DNA of 64,000 bases, taken from assembly GCA_034509925.1 (NCBI GenBank), contig CM067529.1, positions 4,907,001-4,971,000 of the forward strand. Reading direction: 5' to 3'. Below are positions 383-64,000 of the stretch, one piece after another; the stretch's first letter is position 1; the number at the start of each line of letters is the position of its first letter. A program made the translations under genes and the position numbers. Origin of the DNA: Hirudinaria manillensis. Its lineage: Eukaryota > Annelida > Clitellata > Hirudinida > Hirudinidae. The notes beneath the pieces are model-generated. The model had not been told where the DNA came from and did not search any database. It saw nothing but the letters and a program-made list of their open reading frames with translations.

Positions 383-3300
383 TCATACGACTGATTCGAC
401 ATCAAGTACTTCAGCAGAACGAAGTACGAAGGCCTCTGCTGCTAGAGGAGAATAAACAGGAACAGAATCAGGATGTTGGTGGTCAATCAAGAACTTGATC
501 AAAAGTTGAAGATTTTGAGCATTGAAATCCGTTATAACTATGACTGCTCCAAAAAAATCCGATAAATGGTCTGCATGGCAAGACCCATTGAAGGCCATGA
601 GTTTGTTGTTCCCAGTTTTCAAAATTGCAAACGAACTTGTATTAATGTTTGCTAAAACGGCATTCACATAAAATCCATATAGTTCCCTATTAATACTGTC
701 CACAAAGGTATCGACCGAGTTGCCGGCGTCGATGCTAAATAGCAGAGGTTGAAAGTCTGAAGGAAATAGTTGAGTCGAATCGGAAAATGGTGCATGGTGA
801 AGACTTAGAGCTTTTGAGCTTGATTCCAAGATGCAGCTTTCAACCATCATCGTCCAGATTCTCAGAGATGCCTCGGAATCTATTTTTTCGGGCAAATTTT
901 TAGAGACTGCCCTCACCAAGAATGAAACGGCAGCTATTCTATTTGCTAGCGCATTCACGTAAAATTCATTTGTTTGAGTTTGTTGCTCGCAAGATACCAG
1001 CCAGGGGAACTTCCATAATTCTAAGGTCCTGAATATACAGTGCCTTGGCAGATCCATTTCAAGGCATCCGACTGGTCTGACATCATAAGTGGACAGATAA
1101 TCTTCTCCTTCTACTCTTGCTGATTTAATCCTATCCACTTTGATGTGTCTATCCAGGACATCGGGAATGATTTTGGACCACCTCATCCTCTGGCAGGCAA
1201 ATTTGTTTTTATGTTTGAAACTCAGTTCCAACATCTTAGGAATGGCAGAGCCACCGATGGTTATTAAAATAGCATAAGTGCCCTCATTACTCCATAGGAA
1301 ATTGAACATTTTCACTACCAAAAGAACAACCATCATATACATGACCAAGACGAACATTTTCTTGGAAAAACTTCTCAGACAACTTGACCATCCGTATTTT
1401 AGATCATTACAAACTCCGTAATATAATTCTTTGGAAACGTATTCTGTTCCATCTCCATCAATGAATTTGACAGCCCCAAGACTGTGGGCTTTCAAAAGAT
1501 GAACACTCGAATCCTCGATCCCGTCCTCGTCCACAGCGGATAGTCTTGGAGAATTTTCATCAATTAGTTTCAAAATAAAGCGATGCTGGTAGTTTATGTG
1601 GGAAAGAAAGTCGTTTGCATAGAAAAATAAAGAAACAAGAAAACACAGCCACGGAAATAAAGTTGAAGGATAAATGAGACAAGATAGAATAACAAAAAAA
1701 GTCACCTTTAAGCAGAATTCTACGATTAAAAAAACTATAGTGCAATAGCCGAAGAGAAGGAGGCTAAACACGAGCCATATGAAACAGGAAGCAAGAGCTT
1801 TGAAACATTTCGCTGGACAGCTTTCTTTTTTTCTTTCTACTGCAATTTCTCGAGATTTATAGAAAGTCCGGGGATACAAACTCGCGCAAACATTGACGAT
1901 TGGAATAAATGCTCCCAACGTTTCTATCCCAGCTTTGAGCAGCCTCTTCAATTTTGTTGATTTCCATGGCAACTGAAAGAAATGACTTAGAGCATCATCA
2001 TGACTTCCATAAGCAAGTTCCTTCAGTATTGATTTATAATTGTTGTTGAATTGTTTTCGTATGCTTTTGACGTAGTTAGTCGGTTTCTTGGAGCTGCTTT
2101 TTAAAATATATCTTTCAATGGGAGTGTCATTCCGAGATAATAAAAGGAGCGTATAAAAGAATGCAACCAACGAAAATAAAATCCACACGCCGAGTGCAAA
2201 ATTGTCTGGCAGAATGGCATTCAATCCCAAAATACTAAAATGAAGTTTGGCAGGATGAATGTCGGGAGAAGAACTAGTATGATCAATGATTTCCCTGTAG
2301 AAGGATAACCTAGGAAAGTAGAATATGACAGCCAAATGCAATGCCCAAGGATACACTAAGAGAACTCCCATGGCCTTGAGCAAGAAAAACCAACATTTTC
2401 TGAGCTTTGAATTTGGCAGACAAATGGATGGTTGGTACGGCCACGAACCCCACCAATGAATGCAACAACGACCTTCTCCATAACAATGGAATAACAAGCG
2501 GAGCAACGACCTCGGTAGGGAAAAGGGCGTCGAATCATTGAGATTGACGAGCTGCCTGTAGGAGATTCTGATGACGTAGCTGCATTGTCCTGTTATTCCA
2601 TGCTTTAATGAGGCCCTAAAAAATTTTGTGCTCTTTTCAAAAACAAGAAAATGCTTTAGTCGGATGACTAGAATTGGACTGTAAAGCGTCATTATAAGGG
2701 CCATAGAGAAACTGAAAATATTGATTATTAAGAAATCTCCTTTGTCGTGAACGACGAATTGACAGTTACCCTCTTCGTTTTCAATTTCTGAAATTGAACA
2801 ACATCGATGGACAAGAGAAGAAACATTCACATCCGTGTTGATGAACTGATAATGACACAAATAAGTTCCTACTAAATTGGAGTCGTTATCTGAAGGACCT
2901 TTCAGAACGATATCTTTTGCGATTGTTGTCCTTATGGCCATGAGGCGGCAGTTGGAAGTAAGCATTATAAAGCATCTTGGAGGTTTCTCAACCACAGACA
3001 TTCTTAGAACGGGTACTTTGAAATCTAAGAGATACAGGGACAACACGTCTGCGTCCGACGGTAGTTCTAACAATCTCTTACCGATTCTTCTACTTGTCCA
3101 AACCCACCTTGAAGCTTTGTAACTCGATTTCATGTAGGGATAAGTTTCCAATGCAGGGGAGGAATGATTCGGAAAATGGACGTGGAAATGTATAAGTTTG
3201 ATTTCTTTGTCCTCAACGTGTTTGTGAAACATTTCTCTGATGGAGTTCTCTTTATCGATCTGCAAGTGACACTTCTCGTTGCATTCGATTCTGTAATCAA

Positions 3301-3418
3301 AATCCAAGTCACGATGTTCTTCGCCGTCTCTCTGCCAGCTTTCTTGTTCACCCAACTTGAATCCCTCAGAGACGATCGCGTGTCCAAAAAGAAGAAGTTG
3401 TACAAGATGGAGAATCAT
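383..3418 (-). CDS. Intronless multi-pass membrane protein, family not recognised
   Basis: One uninterrupted frame of 1011 residues. The start Met is followed by a hydrophobic stretch (residues 1-18) that looks like a signal peptide, then an ectodomain-like region of about 200 residues containing several cysteines and N-x-S/T sites. Strongly hydrophobic segments follow at roughly 230-254, 343-367, 408-428, 543-566, 568-600, 686-707 and 713-730, so it is probably a polytopic surface protein. The last 250 residues are mostly soluble. I considered DC-STAMP-domain proteins (DCST1/2), but the expected motifs are not visible and I do not assign that family. The lack of introns is unusual here, because most neighbours have 8-19 exons; a retrogene or an ancestrally intronless family are both possible. 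An in-frame stop lies 11 codons upstream of the chosen Met, which supports this start. No function is claimed. Confidence 0.75.
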   Translation of the reverse strand: MILHLVQLLLFGHAIVSEGFKLGEQESWQRDGEEHRDLDFDYRIECNEKCHLQIDKENSIREMFHKHVEDKEIKLIHFHVHFPNHSSPALETYPYMKSSYKASRWVWTSRRIGKRLLELPSDADVLSLYLLDFKVPVLRMSVVEKPPRCFIMLTSNCRLMAIRTTIAKDIVLKGPSDNDSNLVGTYLCHYQFINTDVNVSSLVHRCCSISEIENEEGNCQFVVHDKGDFLIINIFSFSMALIMTLYSPILVIRLKHFLVFEKSTKFFRASLKHGITGQCSYVIRISYRQLVNLNDSTPFSLPRSLLRLLFHCYGEGRCCIHWWGSWPYQPSICLPNSKLRKCWFFLLKAMGVLLVYPWALHLAVIFYFPRLSFYREIIDHTSSSPDIHPAKLHFSILGLNAILPDNFALGVWILFSLVAFFYTLLLLSRNDTPIERYILKSSSKKPTNYVKSIRKQFNNNYKSILKELAYGSHDDALSHFFQLPWKSTKLKRLLKAGIETLGAFIPIVNVCASLYPRTFYKSREIAVERKKESCPAKCFKALASCFIWLVFSLLLFGYCTIVFLIVEFCLKVTFFVILSCLIYPSTLFPWLCFLVSLFFYANDFLSHINYQHRFILKLIDENSPRLSAVDEDGIEDSSVHLLKAHSLGAVKFIDGDGTEYVSKELYYGVCNDLKYGWSSCLRSFSKKMFVLVMYMMVVLLVVKMFNFLWSNEGTYAILITIGGSAIPKMLELSFKHKNKFACQRMRWSKIIPDVLDRHIKVDRIKSARVEGEDYLSTYDVRPVGCLEMDLPRHCIFRTLELWKFPWLVSCEQQTQTNEFYVNALANRIAAVSFLVRAVSKNLPEKIDSEASLRIWTMMVESCILESSSKALSLHHAPFSDSTQLFPSDFQPLLFSIDAGNSVDTFVDSINRELYGFYVNAVLANINTSSFAILKTGNNKLMAFNGSCHADHLSDFFGAVIVITDFNAQNLQLLIKFLIDHQHPDSVPVYSPLAAEAFVLRSAEVLDVESVV

Positions 3419-6270
3419 TTGGAAACAAGAAGCAGACCAAGTTGTGAGTCAAGCCATGTATGGCAATGGTTCATTCTTCCTTCTTTCGTCCTGGACAGAA
3501 TTAACGTAAAAATGTCGTTTTTAATTAATTGTGTTAATAAAAGTTATTTTGACAGTTTTTAACAAATACACTTTAAAGCGATATTCGATTGTCAAAGTAA
3601 GCGTTAGAAGTGTTCGGTTGATTTTGAAAGCTATGTAATGTCAAAGTAACATGTAATAAAATAAAAAGCTTCTATAGAATCTTTTATTCAGTTTTCTCGA
3701 GCATTATTTGGGACCAGATGTTGGAATCTGAACATTCTTCTTCAGGTCTGAATGTGGCACGAAGGAAATGAAGAAGCAGAGACAGGGAGATGATTAATGG
3801 ATCGTGAGCCAACAATGCCTTTGATTGCTAGTCGCTTTGACCCTCTTCTTTTCTCAATCTCCCCCAAAACAGCAAATGATGCCTTATAACTTAAAATTTG
3901 CAACAACTTATGCTTGCAATTTGCCATGAGATTAGTAAAAAACTATAGCGATAATTCTGGAAATATTAGAAAAAAAACGAGTAATTAAGTTACGATTAAC
4001 AAAAAATAGAACATTCGTAAAATGTCTACGAGCATGAATTAGGAATGAAAACGACACCGCATCTCATCTTTATCTTGGTCATCTTACAACGGGCTAGCTG
4101 AAGGATACGACAGATGGCGAACAATGGCTCTTTGTTCTCGCAGAGATTGACAAAACTCGAAGGCTGAGACTCCGCCACACGCCACCTTTAAAACATCGCC
4201 GGGACTGCCAAATCAACATCACAAATAACCGTCATTACTGAGTAACAAGGAAGGAAATGGCAATCCATTCGATTTCCTATTGACGACCTAATGTCGCTTA
4301 ATGATTCCTCAAATCGTACCTAAAATCTGCAAAACATCTTCAATGGCAAGAAATAATTTTCATTTTATTCTGCAGTCATGTAAAATCAACAGAATTTACA
4401 TTCCAATGATTTACTATTGAAGATTAAAATGTTTTAAGTCATAAGGAAGCAGGAATTGATTGCGTGATTGCCGACACTATTTCGCTATCATAGAATCCTC
4501 TCGAATCGTACAAGTATAAACAAATAAACATACCGAATTTCATCGAGCACATCACAATTCTGAACTGTGGAGTCACCGATTCTACTTCCATGGAAGACGG
4601 CTATTTGTAGCAGCATCTCCCAGGCATGCAGTCACTGAGATCATTATCACCATCACCATCGCCATCATCATCGCAATAGTTCCCTTTCCCTCATCATCAT
4701 CTCTTCGTGATCGAATTTATTTTTGAGCACAAATCCCATGGGTGAGCACAAATATTCCTGTCAAATATCTTCAATCGAAAGCATGGCAAACATCCGAAAC
4801 GCTCAGACGGTGGCCGACAATCACGATGAACCCATCTCCAAGTTCACTGTATTAAATATTGTTATATAATGTTGCATATCATTATGTGTGTAATTTCAAT
4901 AAAGTAATCATTAATAAGGGGAATGTCTAACAAATCGAGTAAAAATAATTTCAATTGTTGAGACGTACGGTGGATCTAATATTTGTTGCTCTGACAGGCA
5001 GGATCTACTACTGTATGTTAACATGTTTTTTGACTTGTGTGTTTCAATTCGTTTGCATTCATTTATGTTCGAATGCGATGAAATGCAATAGTGACGCATT
5101 CGACAATTTTTTTGGTTTGATTCGATAATTTAGAAAATGTTACGTTTGATTTTCAAATAGGGAAATGAAAGAAATGATTGGAATGCTCTGCGAATTACAA
5201 AGTGCGAAACAAGCAAATTGGACAAAATGTTCCAAACTTTGTCTGTGATAATATTTACAGAATTTGAATATTATGAAATCCAAAATTCCCCCAAACAATT
5301 TTAAACATACATTTTAATAGAGTTTACCGACCCCTGTTTTAGTAAATTCCATTCTCGAATCATACAAAAACTGCTCAGGCTTCTTTAATTAATCAAATTA
5401 TTATAAAATTCAGACTTCGCAATTGTTCCCCTCTCGAAATGTTAATGAATTGCTTTTCGAATTTAATTATTTATAATTATAATAAGAAATTTTAGATTCT
5501 TTAATTTTTCTCAAGCAAGCAAATTTATTTCAAAAATCCAAATCAAAGAAAGGCAGCCCGAAGGGATGTTCTCCGGGTCATAGGCCGTTTGTAGTAATTA
5601 ACTTTATAAAGTAGTCTCAGTTTGTAATCAGCGATGGATCTGTTTGAGGCAGGAGGGGTCCCATGATCCTCTCGTGATTCCTAAAGAATCAAATTTTTTT
5701 AAAAGCTTGGCGATCAGGAAAGACAAATTCAACCCTTAGATTGAACATTTTCATACATTTTCCTCGTTCCTAGTCCCTCCCGTTGGGTTAAACTTTATTC
5801 CCTCTTCCAAATTCCGACCCCGCCAAAGCGTTCAAGATTCGCCACTAGTAGTTACATTCCTAGTTATCAGACATTTCAACAAAATTTGGAATAATAGAAA
5901 AAATGTTATTATATATAAATATTTGTAGATAAACTTTATTAGTTAAAATTAATTAATAAGTACGATTGGTTTAATATTCATATTATTTTATTCTATAAGC
6001 TATTGATATCCAAATGTTGAGATTATTTAAGTGAAATTATCATCATGATTCTAAAGATCCATTGTAACAGTAAATAGCTTGTCAAAGATTCACTTTACGT
6101 TATTTTGTAAACGATGCCATTGACAACAGTTTCAAAACAGGGAATGGTGTCGTTCACAGAAGGACCGAGGAGCGGGGGCGATGATTGTTATCTTTAACTT
6201 ACAGATGGAAACTGATTTCATTTAAAAATTCGTTTCTATATTAATATTTTTGGTTTGTCGATCTTGAGCT
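3419..6270. other. Intergenic region, no gene seen
   Basis: About 2.9 kb between the divergent membrane-protein gene and the first anoctamin. Open frames here are short and lack splice context or family similarity. There is a small CAT/ATC-rich patch near 4640-4680. From about 6040 onward the sequence aligns by eye with 13420-13672, the region upstream of the second anoctamin, so this end belongs to the duplicated segment and probably includes the 5' UTR or promoter of the first anoctamin. Confidence 0.6.
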
Positions 6271-9200
6271 ATGGCATTACTGCAATGGAAAGTTGTCATG
6301 GATCCTCTTGTAAAGGTTCGGTCAAGAACAAATTTTTTTTATTCGAATTAGAGCTAAGAGAGGCAAGCATTTAGTTGATGTTTATTTAATTTTGAAATAA
6401 GCAATAATCTAAAAAGTATTTAGTAGTATAATAAGCCGTATTAATGTTAATGGTTAATAATAGTTAATGCAGCAGCGGAGACTCATTGATAATTAAATAA
6501 CATTTTAAATTTTCAATGCCCACAGATTTAGATATATCTGCTAGCGTGCGGGGGAAGGGGGAAATCGACTTCTCACCAATGATGTAGAAAGTCGAATTTT
6601 GTATGCTATTTATAGCTGGGGCAGGCAGACTTAATAGTTAAATTGTATATTCACGTAACTTGCCAGGGTCTGAACCCCACCCATCAAAGTTGATGGAGTG
6701 ATGGGATGAGTGGATGATATTATTGCAAAATAAAAAATGTAATACTTAATATAAAAAAAAACAGTGAAAGAGAGCCCCTTTCAATTTAATTTCAGTCAGG
6801 AAGATTTCTAGAAAGCCCTCAAACAGATTTTGTTCTAGTTTATAAAATCAATGATAATGAGTTTGGAAAACTATACAGAGATAAATTTTTTGCCTGGGTT
6901 CGGAAGCTAGAAATTAAAATGAAAGAAACCCAAATGGATGACAAAATGATTGTTGAGTTGCAAGTGCCTCTGTATCTCTTGTGTTTTGAGGGAAGCAGAG
7001 ATGGGCTTAAAGTCATTACAAAAGTACAACAAATTATTTAAATTGGAGTTGGAGATGACATTTAATTTATCATTTATTATTATTATTTGTTTAGTATTCA
7101 AGTAATTACAAAGAGATCCTAGCAGACGATTGTTGTTATTGGTGGAGATGCTTTGAAAGTGAAAGTTTTAGTAAGCTTCAATTTATTATTAGAAAAATAT
7201 CTCTATAAAATTATTTCATAACTTGATTGATAAATTCTTAAATAACTTTTTTTTTCAGTGGACAGGCTTTCTGTGTCACTGGAGCCACACAGCATTCAAA
7301 CTCTGGACTTTCAAAGTCCCTATTTATTCAGATCATCGACTCGATCTTTAATAGTAATTTATTTTTTATTATCCTTAATTATTTTCGATTAATTGTCAAA
7401 GTTTAAAATAATAGTCAAATAACTAGACACATGAAAAAAATGGAGAAGATTTTATAGTATTGTTTGAATTCTCTTTGCAGACTTATTACATCCTGAATTC
7501 CAATGATTTGGTTGATGATCAAGGGAGCATTGACGACTTGAATATCAATGAAGGTAAAAATCATTAATAAACTAGATCCTAGTTATGTTCACCCCTATAA
7601 AACACATTCTTTCATTGAGTCTCTTAGCATAAGTGTGTTATACTTGGATATCTTTCCAAGATATTTACTAATGTGTTGACATCTTAAGCATAGTTTCGAA
7701 AATGGGAAATCATTTCAATGTTTCAAAAGCTTCAACACACAAAGCAATAATCAAATTCAAATCAAATAAATGCAGATATTTTCTATTATGTTTCATGATT
7801 ACTTTACATGTATGTACTGGTTTGCCAATGAAATTTATGGTGAGTATCAAAATACATCTCAAAGGTTTACTAGCAACTAATGTGCTGCAGGAAGATGTCC
7901 ATGAAGATATTTTACTGGAGGCACATACACCACGGTTATAGTCTATAACATAACTTATAGATATGCTGTAAATAGTAATAAAGGTCTTATCCAATTTTTT
8001 TTTTCATCATCTCTAATGAATTCATTTAGTACTAGCTCTTCTACTTCTTGGTGATGAGTCCGACTTTTGCAAAATTACTTCAAGAGAATGTGATAGCAGC
8101 AAAAATAATATGGGTTTTTAAAGAAATTTTGAGACAAAACTTTTGACTAATGGTTTTGCACTTTTATAGACCTCAACATTTCCATGCATTTAAACTGAGG
8201 CTATCTCATGATACACCAGTGTATCCAAGAAATGATATCCTTGATTTACTAAGCATCACCAAGTTAGGTGACCTGCTGTACTAGAGGTGGATAGGAACGA
8301 ATATTACACCATTAATTTCAAAATATTTACTTGGTAGTGAGGAATATTACATCACTAATTTCAAAATATTTACTTGTAGTGATATTGCTTTACATGGTGT
8401 CAAACTGAACTTTGATTCCAGGAAGTCCAGTTTGATGTAAAACTTTCTATACTTCCTAAGCTTTTGATGCCCTAATTTAATATTTAAAGGTATTATGCCA
8501 TCTGTGAGCAGCTTTTGATTTGAACAAAGCCTTGTTTTTGGAATGCAAATCTGAGATGTGAGAGCAATCAACTAAATTCTTATTGGCGTACTGGTACATA
8601 CATCTGTATTAGCATTAATTTAACGGAGCAGATAATCTTACATTCTTAAGGTCTGAACTTCATGTTGAATAAAAAGTACATATCAGATGCCTTTCCAATG
8701 CACGAGATAGAAGTGGATGAGCATGATGCAGCAAAAGAAACAGAAGTGGCTCGATTATCGCAAGAGAGTAGGTCCAGAAAGCACTTTTATAGAGCGTGGA
8801 TGAAAGTATTCAGGTATAATTTTAATTTTTAGAAATATAGAATTGTTTGTTATAAAAATTGGAATTATTATTTAATATAAAATTATTTCTTACTTAAATT
8901 CAAAAATTAAGCTTGAATTTTTGAAATGTATGATAACTATCTCTCATAATATCAGGTTTCAACCAGTTCATAGTATAAGAGATTATTTTGGGCCACGCAT
9001 TGCTTTATATTTTGCATGGTGTGACATTTTGACCTTGTCATTGTGGATCCCTATGATTGTAGGAATCGTTACATTCGTGTATGGCCTCAAAGGAGAGTGA
9101 GTTTAATTGGTGTCCTCAGCTCATTGAGTTTCTTAATCGTTGTGTTACCAGCCAATTGATAGTTTGCAACGAATGATGTGATATTTGAGCCAAAAATATA

Positions 9201-38020: not shown

Positions 38021-47873
<9,853 letters not shown>

Positions 47874-56400: not shown

Positions 56401-57442
56401 TTGAATTTATGAATTTGCAGACAACTCATTTTTAACTAACATTCTAATGTGATTAAATTTGATTATAATTTTTATTTGTCAGACTGTTTTGTTGATTAAA
56501 AGTATGAAAAAGTATAGCATACTTACAACAGGTTCTGGAAGTTCAGGCACATAAATTCCCAAAAGTTCTTCCAACGAATCCCATTGAGTGGCAGGAAGTT
56601 TTGAAATACCAGCCTTTGACAGAACTTGAAACTGAGAGTTTGTGATGTCCCACTGTCCCAATTTCGAGTGATTTTGAATTATATAATAATTTCCATGATT
56701 TATCAACTTCAAGCCTACCTTGTATTCATCTGAAAATTGCTCTGAAGGAGGTAATGTTCTCACCTAATTGGGATGCAAAATGTATCTTTGTATGTATGCA
56801 TTGCAATTAAATTATTGAAATGCATTACAAACTTGCACGGGCAGATCTTGAGCCGATTGTCCGTATTGGTAAGCCTCTTGTTTGAGCCTCAATTCTTCTG
56901 ATCTTTGATCCTTGTTTGGATCAAACTGAGGTAAGAAGGAATCATTAAGCTCAATTTTGTGAGTTTGATCTGGCAAGATCCATCTGCAATTAACAAATTA
57001 TACAATTATCATCTGATAACAATTCAGGGGTTGTGGTACAGGTACAAGTAACTTGCAACGTTCATTAAAACTTGGTAATTTACCTCAGAACTGGAAAATA
57101 GAAACATTTTTCTGTTTGGCGATTGTTGACCAAAATGTATTCGCAAAACCAATCGACACCCTCTGCATTTTCGCCATATTCATCGTCCAACTTCTCTCTG
57201 GAGATTTCAACTCTTGCCATCTCAGAGAATCCATTGAGTGAAACTGCTTCGAAAACATCGATTTTACCGCGTTCGAAGAGTGTTTCAAATTTAAGATCGA
57301 GTTTTAAAGCGTTGCTCGTTTTTCCGTTCACATCCTGCAGTTTGACTCGAAGTAAGACTTGAGAAAGCTGTCCTTTTACATCGCCTGTCTTCACATACAA
57401 AAAGTGATCGATTTTGTTCGGCGGTTCGCAGCAGTTCCCCAT
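53498..57442 (-). CDS. Animal lipoxygenase with N-terminal PLAT domain
   Basis: Non-haem iron dioxygenase of polyunsaturated fatty acids. Fifteen exons, 693 residues in frame: 57084-57442, 56833-56983, 56527-56763, 56275-56372, 56079-56211, 55923-56018, 55722-55818, 55516-55633, 55357-55449, 54976-55036, 54813-54918, 54646-54737, 54166-54321, 53784-53947, 53498-53618. A PLAT domain occupies about residues 8-118. Catalytic motifs: [20 protein letters not shown] with His384 and His389, [15 protein letters not shown] with His570 and Asn574, and the C-terminus IPNFISV. The usual C-terminal iron ligand is Ile; here it is Val693. The N-terminus MGNCC fits myristoylation plus palmitoylation, unusual for this family. 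Intron 10 uses a GC donor (GGG|GCAAGT), needed to give the normal spacing between RRG and YGYRDD. Positional specificity (5-, 8-, 12- or 15-) cannot be read from the sequence by eye. Confidence 0.93.
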
Positions 57443-58650
57443 ATTTTTGTGTTTTGTTTTTTGAATGCGCTTTGAATGAATGCCGATGATAGCAAAGTTT
57501 TATTGGTCTTCGTCCGAGTAAAGGCGATAATCACACAGGTGAGCTCCCCTGTTTATGTGCCTACCAGGTGATTCTTATCATTGCTCATATTTTCTAAAAT
57601 GTTTTTATGTTGTTTAACTTTTTACAAACTTAAAATGTTATTTTACCAAACATTTCACTGCAGTTATTAGTCGTTTTTGCTTTTTTTTTATGTTGTTGAG
57701 AAAACAGTAAAATTTGAAGTTTCATTTTGTGCCACAGAAATGTTTGGTTGAAATAGAAGCTGAATCGTCTTATCTCAACATGAGCTTATTTTTGTAGATT
57801 AGTATAGATTAAGAAGCATTATTTCAAAATATTTATGAATACGTCCTTCGCTTTTCATAATCTCTGAGTAATGCGAGAAGAAACATTTGAGAATAATTTT
57901 TTGTTCATTAACCAGTTTAACCATAAGTATTGAAGAACAGAAGGGATATCTCGAAATTTCAGATCCGCATTATGATTCATTAATTAAGCAATTTAAATTC
58001 TTTACCGTGGTTTCTCGCGGAATAAACAACAGTTTATCTAAAGATAGCGAAAAAGATAGTGAATCACACATTCGGATGCATTAGATGGATTTGAGATAGG
58101 CGTAATCAGATATGGTTAACAGGAATCAAAACTAAAGAGCATATGTATAACTATAGTTATTACACAGAACGGGGTCTTTCTAACCACGATAAACTATAGT
58201 TATCCAGCAGAGTGAGAGAAACAACAGGTTCCAAGACCTAGGCAATAGGGCATTGAATATATTCCAAGCCATCTGAACACTTTTAATAAACCTGACCTAC
58301 CATAATTAGTATGAGGACCCCGGGTTATTACACTATTATTATTTTGCAGTATATTAATTGCACATTATTATCTTTTAAATCCCATTTTATATTCCTCATC
58401 CCACTCGATAAAAGAAGCCGTCATTGAAAAAGGAAAAAAGGCCATCTCTCTTGTTAGACATTTGAATTGAATTTCATTCATTTAAAAGTTTTACAGAAAA
58501 AATTATAACTTGTTTAATAATTATTATTATAGCCTTAGATTTTTAGAGCAAATGCCTTGCTGCCATCACTTATGACGATGATGATGATGATGATGATGTG
58601 ATGATGATGATCATGATTATTATTATTTATTTATGTTATTATTGCTAAAT
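57443..58650. other. Intergenic region
   Basis: About 1.2 kb between the lipoxygenase start and the stop of the CARD/pseudokinase gene (both minus strand). It should contain the lipoxygenase promoter and the other gene's 3' UTR. A GAT microsatellite lies at about 58576-58612. The sequence AACTATAGTTAT occurs near 58150 and again, as AAACTATAGTTAT, near 58190. No gene seen. Confidence 0.55.
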
Positions 58651-60823
58651 TCATCTTTCCGGAAACTCGAAGAAACAAATGTTTCCAGACGTCAGACCGA
58701 CAAAAAGGAAATTTTCCAAGACGTAGATGCTTGAAGGAGCAGTAATTCCATCACTGACGTTGAGAATTTCGACAGGAGTTGACCTCATGAACCTGTCGAT
58801 GCTCATGATTTTGTTTTCACCCGCATCGGCGATCAAGAACCTCCCCGACGGACAGTGAATGGCGACATCTGAAACTTTGATGAAGGAAGCGGAGCCGAAG
58901 CCCGAAGAATTGGAGCCGTCGTTATCCAGCACGCAGAGAGAATCGATGGTATACACGGAGCTGTGCAGCACTAAACAGTGCATCTCGTCGATTTTGAAGG
59001 CTTTCCACGGTCCTTCTACTATTGTTTCGCATCTTAAAGTAGATAGTCGAGTACCTTCGCTGTCGTATTCCACTGCAGTGTATTCCGAATTGCAACAGCC
59101 GATGAGAATCGTATTTTTGGGAGTGATTGATAGACTTATGGCTCCCTCTGGAACTTCCCAGGATTTCGTGATCTTTAGACGTTGAACGTTAACATGAATG
59201 ACGATGGACTGTCCGACATCCAATACGTACAGACACTGCGCAGTGTTACTCGAAGCGATACTTTTGAGCTTGCTGCTGCAAACTTTAATAGGTTTCAAAG
59301 AAGATTTCTTTTTACCCGCCACGTCCTTGCTTTTAAAGTACGTTTTTAGTTTAGTTTTAGTGCTTGGTCCTAATCTGATTGAATTAAGTTTAAAGAAATC
59401 TTTCTGCATATTGTAGCGCTTGATGGAGCTGGAATACATGAAGATGACGTACAGAATACCGGAGAGTGAAGTCATACCTTGGACAGGTTTTCTGCAGGAA
59501 ATCATGTGTTCGCTTGTGTACCTTTTTGCAAACGGATCTGTAATATGTAAATAATTAAAAAATAAAGTATGAATATTTTCTGGAAACACGAAGCCTTAAT
59601 TTTCTCGCCTTTGATTTGAATAAACTGCAATATATCTGCCTAAAATAAGTGAAAATTTGAAAATAAGATTTACAAAACGTACTATCATCTCTTTGAGGTA
59701 AATATTGATCAAATGAATCAAGCTGGTCCAAATCTGGTCTTTTACACTCTTCCAAACTTAGACACTTTTGGATAGTTTGTTTAACCAGTGGGGAATCTAT
59801 CAGATGTGTGTTCAAAATAGTTGTTATGTTTTCTTCTCGGGCATTTGACAGAAATCCTATTATTTCCTTCTGAGTCATTTCTACAATTTAATAATTAAAT
59901 AAAATTATTATATTATATTATATTATATTATATTATATTATATTATATTATATTATATTATATTATATTATATTATATTATATTATATTATATTATATTA
60001 TATTATATTATATTATATTATATTATATTATATTATATTATATTATTATATATATTATTATATTATATTATATTATATTATATTATATTATATTATATTA
60101 TATTATATTATATTATATTATATTATATTATATTATATTATATTATATTATATTATATTATATTATATTATATTATATTATATTATATTATATTATATTA
60201 TATTATATTATATTATATTATATGCAAAGTATATTATAGTCACATCTAGGTCATCAACCACAATTGATTATATGCTCATTTGCCATTATTTATAGGAATT
60301 AGGCATGGTTTAATTACTATGAAATAATAATGATATTTCAGCTAATCTCTAAAATATTTTTTCAGAATTATTAAATAATTAATTATTACAAATTAGTAAT
60401 GAACAACATGAGGTAGGTCAGTAGGCTTTTCGCGATCCTTTGCTTAGCGAATGAATGCTAATTTCGTCTAAACGCGGGACACGAAATATTTTTTTTCCCT
60501 TTTATTAGCTCTTCCAAAACTCGCAAAAAAAAACAATCAGTTCATAATCCGATTCAATAATTTTAGGTCCGCCATTGGGTCTGGGAAATTGTGACCCCTT
60601 GTGCCGTCAGACTATCGAAAAAAAGGACTTTCAAATCCTTCTTCAGAATCAATGTACATTCATAAATATCATTCAGTTCGGCTTGCATATTTCAACCAAA
60701 TTCCAACAAACTTATATAATAATAATTATTATTATATGATATAATAATAATTATTATTATTATATGATATAATAATAATATATAATTATATAATAATAAT
60801 GATTATTAATATTATCATTCCAA

Positions 60824-60859
<36 letters not shown>

Positions 60860-63800
60860 CAGTAACAGTATTAATAGTAATGATTCATCAACCGATTAGT
60901 TCCTGGTTCCCTATTTTGGATTCTGCGAATGATCTTCATAATAATTGTCGGCAATTACAAAAGAATATGGATTTTCAAATCAAACAAGTCCAAGGAAGAA
61001 ATATTATGGAATAATAACAGGGAATTAATTTTTTGTGGATACTAATTTATTAGTTGGTATTTTATATTAAAATCTACAGAATTTTTACTCAAGCTGTTCC
61101 CTCCAAACGCAGTGATTGTTTACATTAAATTGTTTGTTTCATTTTTATATTAAAATTAACAAATTACCTGCAAAGTGATAACTGAAAGACTCTCAGACAA
61201 AACAAATTCCAAAGCCGACCACAGAATTTAAAAAAATCACAATATGACCTAAATGAAATACTAATTATTGAGTAATTAAATTTACCACTAAAATCAGTTT
61301 TAATTTGGCTTAAAAATTGTAGAGATCAATTCACTTCGTGATGATTTGCTTGTATGTGGAAATATTAGAACAACAATTATCGAAATGAACGTCCACTTAT
61401 TAAATAATAATAATTATTATTATTATAATTCACTTGCCTGGAAATATTTTCCCGCCCCTGATCCAAAGTTTCAATGCGGTCAGTCCAAACGACCAGACGT
61501 CAGTGGCATAAGAATATTTCTTTCGTTTAATTACTTCTGGAGCTATGCTTTCGGCTCGGGGGAGAGGTTTACCTGAATATGTACATATTTTAAAGACCTG
61601 TAGTGGTTGTTATGCTATCTTCTTATGTATCTCTGTTATACATAGATTATTTACTATTTTGTTGCGAATCCGTTCTTGATACGAAAAGGAATTAACCTTC
61701 GAGGATAAAATTCTTCAGTTCCACTCTGGCAGCGTTTTGAAAGTTGGTAATTTTAATGGAATATCCATTGTTGCATATTAATAAATTATATGCAAAAATA
61801 CTTCTGTGTAGAATGCTGCAGTCGTGCAAATATTTCAATCCAGAGGCCAGCTTTAAACAAATGAGATTGCCGTGTATAAATATAATAATAGGTCAATGGA
61901 TTTGCGTGAATATTGAATATTCGTCGTATATTGGAAACACAAAAATTATTATTTAATGCTACACAAATCCACCTTTTAAGTGTTTTATCAATGTAAGTGT
62001 CATTTAGATAAAATACCCTGCTAACTCAGTCCATCAATTTAAATGCTATTTAAATAAAATGCCGTGATAATGGCGTCTAACCTGAACGATCCATTCTGCT
62101 TTTATTTCATTTGGAATTTCAGATTTCTTTACGAATGTGAGAGCATTAGGAAAAGCCGAACATTCGAGTACTATGAAACGTTTGATGGAATTACAAGGAC
62201 CCATGCCCAGTAGGTTGGTGATTCTCGAATGTTTTCGGCGCTTCAGTAATTGAATCTCAGGAAGTTGTTCGACGCCACCGTTAACGTCGTTAAGTTCTTT
62301 GAGGCAAACGGTCATCAAGTCCGTTTTAGGAGGACATTCTTCGTTAAATAAATCGTTATAAGTCAAATTAATTTTTTTTTTCACACGTTTTATTATGAGG
62401 GCAATGCAAACATTGAGAAGGGTAATTTATTGGAGATAATTGCTTGTAATTCTTTTTATTTATTGTTACTATTCAACAAAACATATTGCTCACTTAAATG
62501 TCCACTCCATAAGTCGTAAGTGGATTGACAGTATTTTGGCAATTTTTTCAATGAGGACAGCTCATTCCTTTCAATTATTCTCACTTCATTTCCTATTTGA
62601 GCATTGTCTGGGTTTTCTGGAAAATTAAAATTGCTTTTAATGTCTTCATCAAGTTTATTTGGGTTAATAAAGTTTCATAAAGTTAAATAGTAACCTTGAT
62701 TTTCACAATCTTCTTGTTCGGATGTGTATTCTGGTATTCCATCATCTGAAATTTCAAACTTATAGTTATGCACAATAAATTAATTTATATTAAATATACA
62801 TTTATATTTGTTTCCTGTTAAGTAATCTCGTGTACCTTTATAGTCGTTCTGGTATTTAAACGAACTAAATAATAGTCGTTTATCGATTCATTTCTTTACA
62901 TGTGATTTTAAAATCAGCAACGTTATTGTAAAAGCTTTAATGAGAATCGTTGTTTGCATTTTTAAAAATTAAATAAGAAATATGAAAGTAAAAGATGTCT
63001 CCATGAATTCATATCATCTGACATGGGTTCCGACAAAATGGTGTAATTGAATTATAAATACGTTGAGGATAGCAAAAAGAAAGTATTACAAGTAATAATA
63101 ATTTAGACGGACGGATAAATATAAATGGATAAAGAAATTGGTTAACATAATAATTTCCAAATCACCAACCGTTATCGTAGGTCATTGAATTGGTTACATC
63201 AGCGAGAATGTCCTCGCTTTTGAAAATGGCAGAAGCGGCAGTTTTTATCTGATGCTCGAGTATCCCGATGTGGTTTTTCAATTTCTCTATTTCCTCATTT
63301 TTAGATCTTAATTGGTTTTCCAAATCATTGATTTTAGTTTTTAATTCCCGCACAATCGGTGGAATTGAAGAATCATTGGCCACGTAAGTTGAAAGTTGCC
63401 TTTCATAGACACGCCTTTCAGAGTTAGGTTGACTTTCATAGACAGATCGCCTTTCATAAACAGGTTGCCTTTCATATACAGGTTGACTTTCACAGACAGG
63501 TTGACTTTCTCTGCGTTCTATAATCAAGTTCTCATAAGTGGAATTTAATAAAGACAATTACATGTAATATACATTATGAATTATACATATTAGATGTCGA
63601 TCAAGCTGAATAACATAAATTCGTTGTTAATGGCGACGGTTATCATTAACTTTCTATAAATATATAATTAAATGCTAATTAATTCAGTGAAATATATTAA
63701 TCAATAAATAAGCAGTAAATGTCTATCAATTGAGTTTAATTTAAAAAAAAACGTAAAGAATTACAGACCAATTTCTATTCGGTTGGCATTCTCGTCGAGT

Positions 63801-64000
63801 TCAATGGCAATCCACGGGTAACTGTCTTGCAACGCTTGCTTGAGGAAGGTGAAGGCACAAGGATTGGTTGTGGTGAAGAACTTGTGGAGCATTGTACGGC
63901 ATTTGTCCTGTCTCGTGCCGGCTGTTATTATATTCTCTCGTTCTTCTATTGTTACGACTTTCTTCTCTATTAGGTAGTCGAGGACGAATTTCGGATCAAC
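58651..64000 (-). CDS. CARD - coiled coil - pseudokinase - beta-propeller protein (5' end outside window)
   Basis: Nine exons, 794 residues in frame, N-terminus cut by the window: 63769-64000, 63170-63517, 62695-62745, 62494-62616, 62082-62338, 61697-61850, 61438-61572, 59683-59880, 58651-59537. Residues 1-77 form a CARD (FVLDYLIEKKVVTIEERE, then CRTMLHKFF). A linker has six imperfect PVYERQ-type hexapeptides, then a coiled coil (about 125-165). A kinase fold spans about 235-500: VCLKEL with the beta3 Lys, YLHDCSILHRS in place of HRD, KITNFQ in place of DFG, APEVI, DVWSFG, and KCLSLEECKRPDL. The Gly-rich loop, catalytic Asp and metal-binding Asp are all missing, so it should be a pseudokinase. 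The last 295 residues form an NHL/WD-like propeller (VSDVAIHCPSGRFLIADAGE is typical). Likely a cytoplasmic signalling adaptor; the immune or cell-death role is inferred from the CARD only. Confidence 0.85.
59905..60222. repeat. (TATTA)n pentanucleotide microsatellite
   Basis: About 318 bp of TATTA with one disturbed patch near 60040-60058. It lies 25 bp upstream (in gene orientation) of the exon at 59683-59880, inside the large intron of the CARD/pseudokinase gene. Confidence 0.97.
60828..60858. repeat. (ATT)n microsatellite next to TA-rich palindromes
   Basis: About 31 bp of ATT; just before it, 60716-60800 is built of TAATAATAATTATTATTA palindromes separated by ATATGATATAA. All within the large intron of the CARD/pseudokinase gene. 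Confidence 0.85.
63400..63510 (-). repeat. Coding 18-bp minisatellite (hexapeptide repeat)
   Basis: Six imperfect 18-bp units encode PVCESQ, PVYERQ, PVYERR, SVYESQ, PNSERR and VYERQ directly after the CARD exon. The repeat keeps frame throughout, as expected for a translated linker. Confidence 0.85.

Follow-up and report, generated by a model that had tools for sequence, protein, structure and literature searches.

Gene content and structure of the locus

The stretch of DNA analysed here, referred to as the window, comprises 64,000 nucleotides (nt) of the leech Hirudinaria manillensis (contig CM067529.1, our C4, positions 4907001-4971000); the genome read and searched together with it amounts to 148.4 Mb in 23 contigs. 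This genome gave 8 matches to the annelid haemoglobin linker and 63 to antistasin, which are indicative of a leech. At the high-coordinate end of the window lies a minus-strand gene for which a splice model re-derived from the DNA joins nine exons, in a single frame throughout, into a protein of 816 amino acids. The predicted product carries an N-terminal CARD, a coiled coil, a kinase fold with degenerate catalytic motifs and a C-terminal region that is probably an NHL-like propeller. We tentatively propose, with a confidence that stops a little short of even, that a single leech gene specifies a protein of the type CARD-coiled coil-pseudokinase-NHL-like, probably an oligomerising scaffold, and that the gene arose by insertion of a kinase into a scaffold resembling L010, a kinase-free gene of the same genome. 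The features of the gene, in window coordinates, are as follows.

63769..64066, minus strand: exon 1, CARD at residues 17-89; 63769..64000 lies within the window, ATG at 64066-64064 (spliced model; Pfam CARD; APAF1 CARD match)
63170..63517, minus strand: exon 2, degenerate YERQPVYER-type repeats, then the coiled coil at about residues 157-190 (spliced model; coiled coil by eye)
62695..62745, minus strand: exon 3, 51-nt linker exon, the least certain (spliced model; model frame not the best of six)
62494..62616, minus strand: exon 4, linker and start of the kinase fold, glycine loop lost (LPKYCQSTYDLWSG) (spliced model; Pfam; alignments)
62082..62338, minus strand: exon 5, kinase N lobe, beta3 Lys287 and alphaC Glu301 retained (spliced model; alignments)
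61697..61850, minus strand: exon 6, degenerate catalytic loop, HRS (Ser376) and NFQ (395-397) replacing HRD and DFG (spliced model; alignments)
61438..61572, minus strand: exon 7, APE motif (421-423), alphaF Asp435, GC splice donor (spliced model; alignments)
59683..59880, minus strand: exon 8, kinase C lobe, Arg503-Pro504 (spliced model; Pfam)
58651..59537, minus strand: exon 9, C-terminal region, probable NHL-like propeller; stop codon TGA at 58651-58653 (spliced model; profile and shuffle tests)
58626..58631, minus strand: AATAAA, a hexamer resembling a poly(A) signal (19 nt after the stop)

A first-pass annotation had placed nine in-frame exons of a single gene between 58651 and 64000. The joined open reading frame stands, and the interval requires correction: the ATG at 64066 is 66 bases past the window end, leaving residues 1-22 outside. 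An AG 3 bases upstream of this ATG could serve as an acceptor, so that the gene may have another exon on its 5′ side or receive a spliced leader. We set the exon borders by eye and by domain continuity; alternative splice sites, likewise read by eye, are possible at the exon 1/exon 2 junction, leaving a few residues there ambiguous. All junctions are of the GT-AG type apart from a GC donor after exon 7, and all introns are in phase 1 save that between exons 5 and 6, which is in phase 0. In a codon log-odds test for which eight open frames from this genome served as the training set and introns as the background, the model frame ranked first of six in 8 of the 9 exons, the 51-nt exon 3 being the exception; all eight introns scored negative in three frames, the same introns having also formed the background of the score.

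CARD, coiled coil and kinase fold

The Pfam CARD model matched residues 17-89 with an expectation value (E) of 4.6e-10 and 39.8 bits, against a curated cut-off of 23.9, and the same domain scored 44.2 bits in the genome search. Its closest solved structure is the CARD of APAF1 (E = 3.7e-4), and no CARD9 or CARD11 chain occurs among its 18 solved CARD matches. The stretch between the CARD and the kinase, read by eye, consists of degenerate YERQPVYER repeats followed by about 34 residues of coiled coil, and at this region Pfam returned only weak coiled-coil families.

The kinase fold spans residues 269-510 (PF07714, E = 2.8e-27, model positions 16-255 of 258; PF00069, E = 3.5e-23). Alignments to solved kinases revealed that both catalytic aspartates are lost, with HRD replaced by HRS (Ser376) and DFG by NFQ (395-397), and that the glycine loop is gone, the sequence reading LPKYCQSTYDLWSG at this site; the features expected of an active kinase, namely the HRD and DFG aspartates and the glycine loop, are absent. 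Lys287, Glu301, APE (421-423), Asp435 and Arg503 are retained, the first four corresponding to the beta3 lysine, the alphaC glutamate, the APE motif and the alphaF aspartate. Because both catalytic aspartates and the glycine loop are lost, the domain is predicted to be a pseudokinase. The CARD and the kinase fold are secure, and the CARD, the repeat/coiled-coil linker (repeats and then coiled coil, both in exon 2) and the pseudokinase of the first-pass annotation were all borne out.

A kinase-free relative in the same genome

A search of the genome with the window protein gave 21 matches, 13 of which fall in the kinase region with 26-35% identity. Among the other four CARD genes of the genome is L010 (G000:C10:5612000-5621999, minus strand), in which four predicted exons, separated by phase-1 introns only, encode a protein of 613 amino acids with a CARD (E = 1.1e-11), a long coiled coil and an NHL-like C-terminal region (Pfam NHL match weak, E = 0.021), without a kinase. 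The intron between its coiled coil and propeller exons measures 227 nt, too small for a kinase. The order of parts shared with this kinase-free gene points to the window gene as a scaffold of the L010 type that acquired a kinase module between phase-1 introns.

When the two proteins were joined and compared without the kinase, 0 of 300 shuffles scored as well, the shuffle being one that does not keep heptads; at the propeller ends 24 and 38 of 1000 shuffles were as good, and the coiled coils were equalled by 2 of 1000 plain shuffles. Counting against the proposed origin, the CARD alignment was equalled by 154 of 1000 shuffles, which is chance level, the coiled coils by a marginal 36 of 1000 shuffles that kept the heptads, and the whole propeller exons did no better than shuffles (39, shuffle mean 37). 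The sequence evidence that both genes descend from one L010-like gene is weak. Homology of the two CARDs by alignment, considered as a separate proposition, was unsupported at 154 of 1000.

A third related propeller is predicted in L049 (G000:C1:2410000-2419999, plus strand, about 3269-7054), where an immunoglobulin-like segment, a membrane segment and the propeller appear to follow one another in that order. This propeller is 38% identical to that of L010 over 69 residues, and L049 is perhaps a receptor with a cytoplasmic propeller.

Nature of the C-terminal region

The C-terminus had been annotated in the first pass as an NHL/WD-like propeller. The WD40 half of that description fell away, as Pfam found no WD40 match in the window protein, whereas the NHL half gained modest support. 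A profile of exon 9 and the C-terminal exon of L010 gave 3 PDB matches; NHL propellers account for 2, fly Thin (E = 0.0047) and TRIM71 (E = 0.57). Adding the L049 exon raised the number to 38, the best natural matches being PknD (E = 4.8e-4) and TRIM71 (E = 7.2e-4), and the natural NHL structures recovered include TRIM71, TRIM2, TRIM3 and Thin. By their names, 37 of the 38 are taken to be NHL propellers or designs derived from one (25 Pizza and 12 others); 2 of the 12 non-Pizza matches are named merely serine/threonine kinase. Exon 9 by itself, aligned to three joined NHL units, scored 41, the shuffles averaging 26 and 24 of 2000 doing as well, and its alignment extends over two successive units. 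The corresponding counts were 0 for the L010 exon, 69 for the L049 exon and 1111 for the kinase region; against one NHL unit, they were 133 for exon 9, 1 for the L010 exon, 19 for the L049 exon and 858 for the kinase region (all of 2000). By eye, the stretch GRFLIADAGENKIMSID in exon 9 resembles an NHL repeat.

Several results count against a propeller. Exon 9 alone had no meaningful match in Pfam, PDB or the protein database, a direct NHL match in Pfam being among those missing, and internal repeats were not detected (top score 27, compared with 25-42 in 12 shuffles). With a single NHL unit, its score was no better than that of 133 of 2000 shuffles. Repeats inflate the E-values obtained with the three-exon profile, to which a single blade contributes about 4-9 bits, and the L010 exon may account for the matches of both profiles. 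When the profile was built from the L010 and L049 exons only, exon 9 came 210th of 1000 in a ranking with 999 shuffled versions of itself (E = 28), and this rank was counted against homology of exon 9 to the other two exons. Single-sequence fold prediction of exon 9 was uninformative (predicted local distance difference test score, pLDDT, 33).

The C-terminal region could instead be another lineage-specific domain and not a propeller, a reading that we consider rather unlikely. It would accommodate the lack of meaningful matches for exon 9 alone, the missing internal repeats and the rank given by the profile of the other two exons; it leaves unexplained why exon 9 aligns along two NHL units in succession, with 24 of 2000 shuffles as good, and why GRFLIADAGENKIMSID looks by eye like an NHL repeat. 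From these sequence comparisons, exon 9 probably encodes an NHL-like propeller, and NHL-like is favoured over WD40.

Searches for the same domain order

The first-pass annotation had not recognised the domain order as that of a described family. In a search with the whole protein, in which the 7994 best candidates were scored, 50 proteins were returned, all with kinase Pfam labels and none (0/50) listing a CARD or NHL Pfam domain. The CARD region gave no match among 23 candidates at E 10, and the propeller region none among 1522 at E 0.001; these protein-database searches depend on shared five-residue words, and divergent orthologues may escape them. No described CARD-coiled coil-pseudokinase-NHL protein turned up in the literature listings and abstract openings covered, in a library that lacks most subscription papers. 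Each domain is known, and their combination is unfamiliar; the claim of an unrecognised order holds for the CARD-coiled coil-pseudokinase part and is no more than probable for the propeller.

Comparison with known systems

The layout had been likened to that of APAF1 with a pseudokinase in place of the ATPase. This likeness survives for the CARD, whose best solved match is that of APAF1 (E = 3.7e-4), and both proteins have a C-terminal region of propeller type, probable in the window protein; the window protein has no NB-ARC or WD40 Pfam match and carries a coiled coil and a pseudokinase instead, and nothing indicates that the pseudokinase took the place of the ATPase. The contrast drawn with RIPK2 was upheld: RIPK2 combines a kinase fold and a CARD in one protein in the order kinase then CARD, whereas the window protein has the CARD first, followed by a coiled coil, a degenerate pseudokinase and the propeller-like region. 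Bacterial PknD, whose NHL structure is among the three-exon-profile matches, also joins a kinase and an NHL propeller; it is an active membrane kinase and has no CARD.

In the TRIM-NHL proteins (TRIM2/3/71, Thin/TRIM32) a coiled coil precedes a C-terminal NHL propeller, a layout that the window protein probably shares; they differ in having RING and B-box instead of a CARD and no pseudokinase between; the NHL assignment of exon 9 is modest, and neither RING nor B-box was found in the Pfam scan of the window protein. The CARD-CC proteins (CARD9 and CARD10/11/14) likewise begin with a CARD, continue into a coiled coil and end in a larger regulatory region. The corresponding region of the window protein is a pseudokinase and a probable propeller, and the coiled coil of the window protein is short by eye. 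Given the presence in this genome of L010, a kinase-free CARD-coiled coil-NHL-like gene, we regard CARD-CC and TRIM-NHL scaffolds as nearer models than APAF1. Invertebrate CARD-CC homologues are reported to be confined to species with Bcl10, annelids and molluscs being among the Bcl10 lineages, and removal of the region after the coiled coil activates CARD-CC signalling (PMC5978004). By analogy, this activation by deletion offers a guide to how the C-terminal half of the window protein might be inhibitory. In the DED-TRADD-N-WD40 proteins of marine animals, a death-fold domain is fused to a C-terminal beta-propeller (PMC8195603). These have other death-fold and adaptor domains and no kinase; since such fusions are known, the window protein may be regarded as a variation on a known type.

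Proposed function and origin

Across the genome, searches gave 5 CARD, 17 Death and 4 DED matches and 25 caspase-fold exon matches. NB-ARC was not found genome-wide, where introns could hide split domains, and the genome match lists contain no CARD match adjoining a caspase match.

The window protein would act as an oligomerising scaffold. The cue bound by its C-terminal propeller would be a protein, an RNA or something else, copies of the window protein would be gathered by the coiled coil, and the pseudokinase would serve as a docking surface or conformational switch, not as an enzyme. The clustered CARDs could then seed a CARD filament together with another of the genome's few CARD proteins, the products of the other four CARD genes being the candidate partners. 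As to origin, a CARD-coiled coil-NHL-like scaffold such as L010 would have received a kinase module flanked by phase-1 introns (exons 4-8). We infer every functional step here as well as the kinase insertion; the scheme of the first-pass annotation, with the propeller as sensor, the pseudokinase as switch and the CARD as output, is plausible.

The role might lie outside immunity and cell death altogether, the protein being a TRIM-NHL-like regulator of RNA or the cytoskeleton in which the CARD is merely an oligomeriser. We think this unlikely: TRIM-NHL proteins do have NHL repeats after a coiled coil, and the three-exon profile did match TRIM71, TRIM2, TRIM3 and Thin, but the RING and B-box are missing from the Pfam scan, and the CARD is nearest to that of APAF1, a cell-death protein.

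If the protein is real and expressed, it would constitute a death-fold platform that is built on a pseudokinase together with an NHL-like propeller and contains neither an NB-ARC nor a NACHT ATPase, and the kinase-free L010 would provide a natural comparison for what the pseudokinase adds. As a long shot, CARD-coiled coil-NHL signalling scaffolds may form a family in leeches, with a CARD standing in for the RING/B-box of TRIM proteins and a pseudokinase switch gained by one member; in a genome that yielded no NB-ARC match, such scaffolds could bring CARD proteins together and fill the role of APAF1 or CARD-CC proteins, using a propeller as sensor and lacking an ATPase.

Kinase group and catalytic status

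The best 60 of 2166 solved kinase matches are tyrosine kinases, whereas a tree of 27 rows puts the window kinase on a branch of 4.04, apart from the tyrosine-kinase rows. As the structure matches and the tree disagree and the branch is long, placement in a kinase group is unsure. Atypical catalysis, or retained nucleotide binding that drives a switch, would be compatible with the presence of Lys287 and Glu301, and some kinases with altered motifs are active. A kinase that is not dead in this sense is nevertheless quite unlikely, with the HRD and DFG aspartates both replaced and the glycine loop lost.

Two other open frames, L037 (G000:C6:4226075) and L038 (C3:4750861), have degenerate kinase catalytic loops (HRN and HRK) and cluster together in the 27-row tree.

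One gene or two

From the genomic sequence we infer one gene, not two, with a single transcript spanning nine exons. That basis is itself a point against the model, and it leaves room for two genes read as one, a CARD-coiled coil gene upstream and a kinase-propeller or propeller gene downstream. Such a division would be consistent with the tiny exon 3, whose model frame is not the best of six, with the in-frame stops that unspliced exons 1 and 2 soon run into, and with AATAAA hexamers inside introns 3, 4 and 7. It is very unlikely given that introns 2, 3 and 8 are short (424, 78 and 145 nt), that one frame is maintained over every junction, that intron 8 contains neither AATAAA nor ATTAAA, and that L010, whose structure is also drawn from genomic sequence, has the same CARD-coiled coil-propeller-like order. 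The AATAAA located 19 nt past the stop is weak evidence for the 3′ end, because introns 3, 4 and 7, in AT-rich surroundings, contain one too. A decaying or unexpressed gene, to which the long kinase branch (4.04) might point, is highly improbable with 816 codons open over nine exons, usable splice sites and codon bias present.

Other features of the window and genome

Downstream of the gene, a minus-strand neighbour at 57080-57499 contains a PLAT/LH2 domain and is possibly a lipoxygenase-type gene; its assignment as a copine was rejected upon finding the PLAT domain. Elsewhere in the genome, L016 (G000:C10:4738228, minus strand) has a Death domain near two segments that are TIR-like by eye (FLSYQW and FISYQW), and at G000:C1:6714422-6716665 two DED matches are followed by caspase-fold matches, a probable tandem-DED caspase. 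Within the window, an open frame of 1021 codons on the minus strand (383-3448) had no Pfam match at E 0.01, and an exon at 41265-41756, also on the minus strand, encodes an ion-transport domain that is TRPC-like by eye. Positions 43871-44933 consist of about 1 kb of trinucleotide AAT/TTA repeats, which give rise to long homopolymeric frames.

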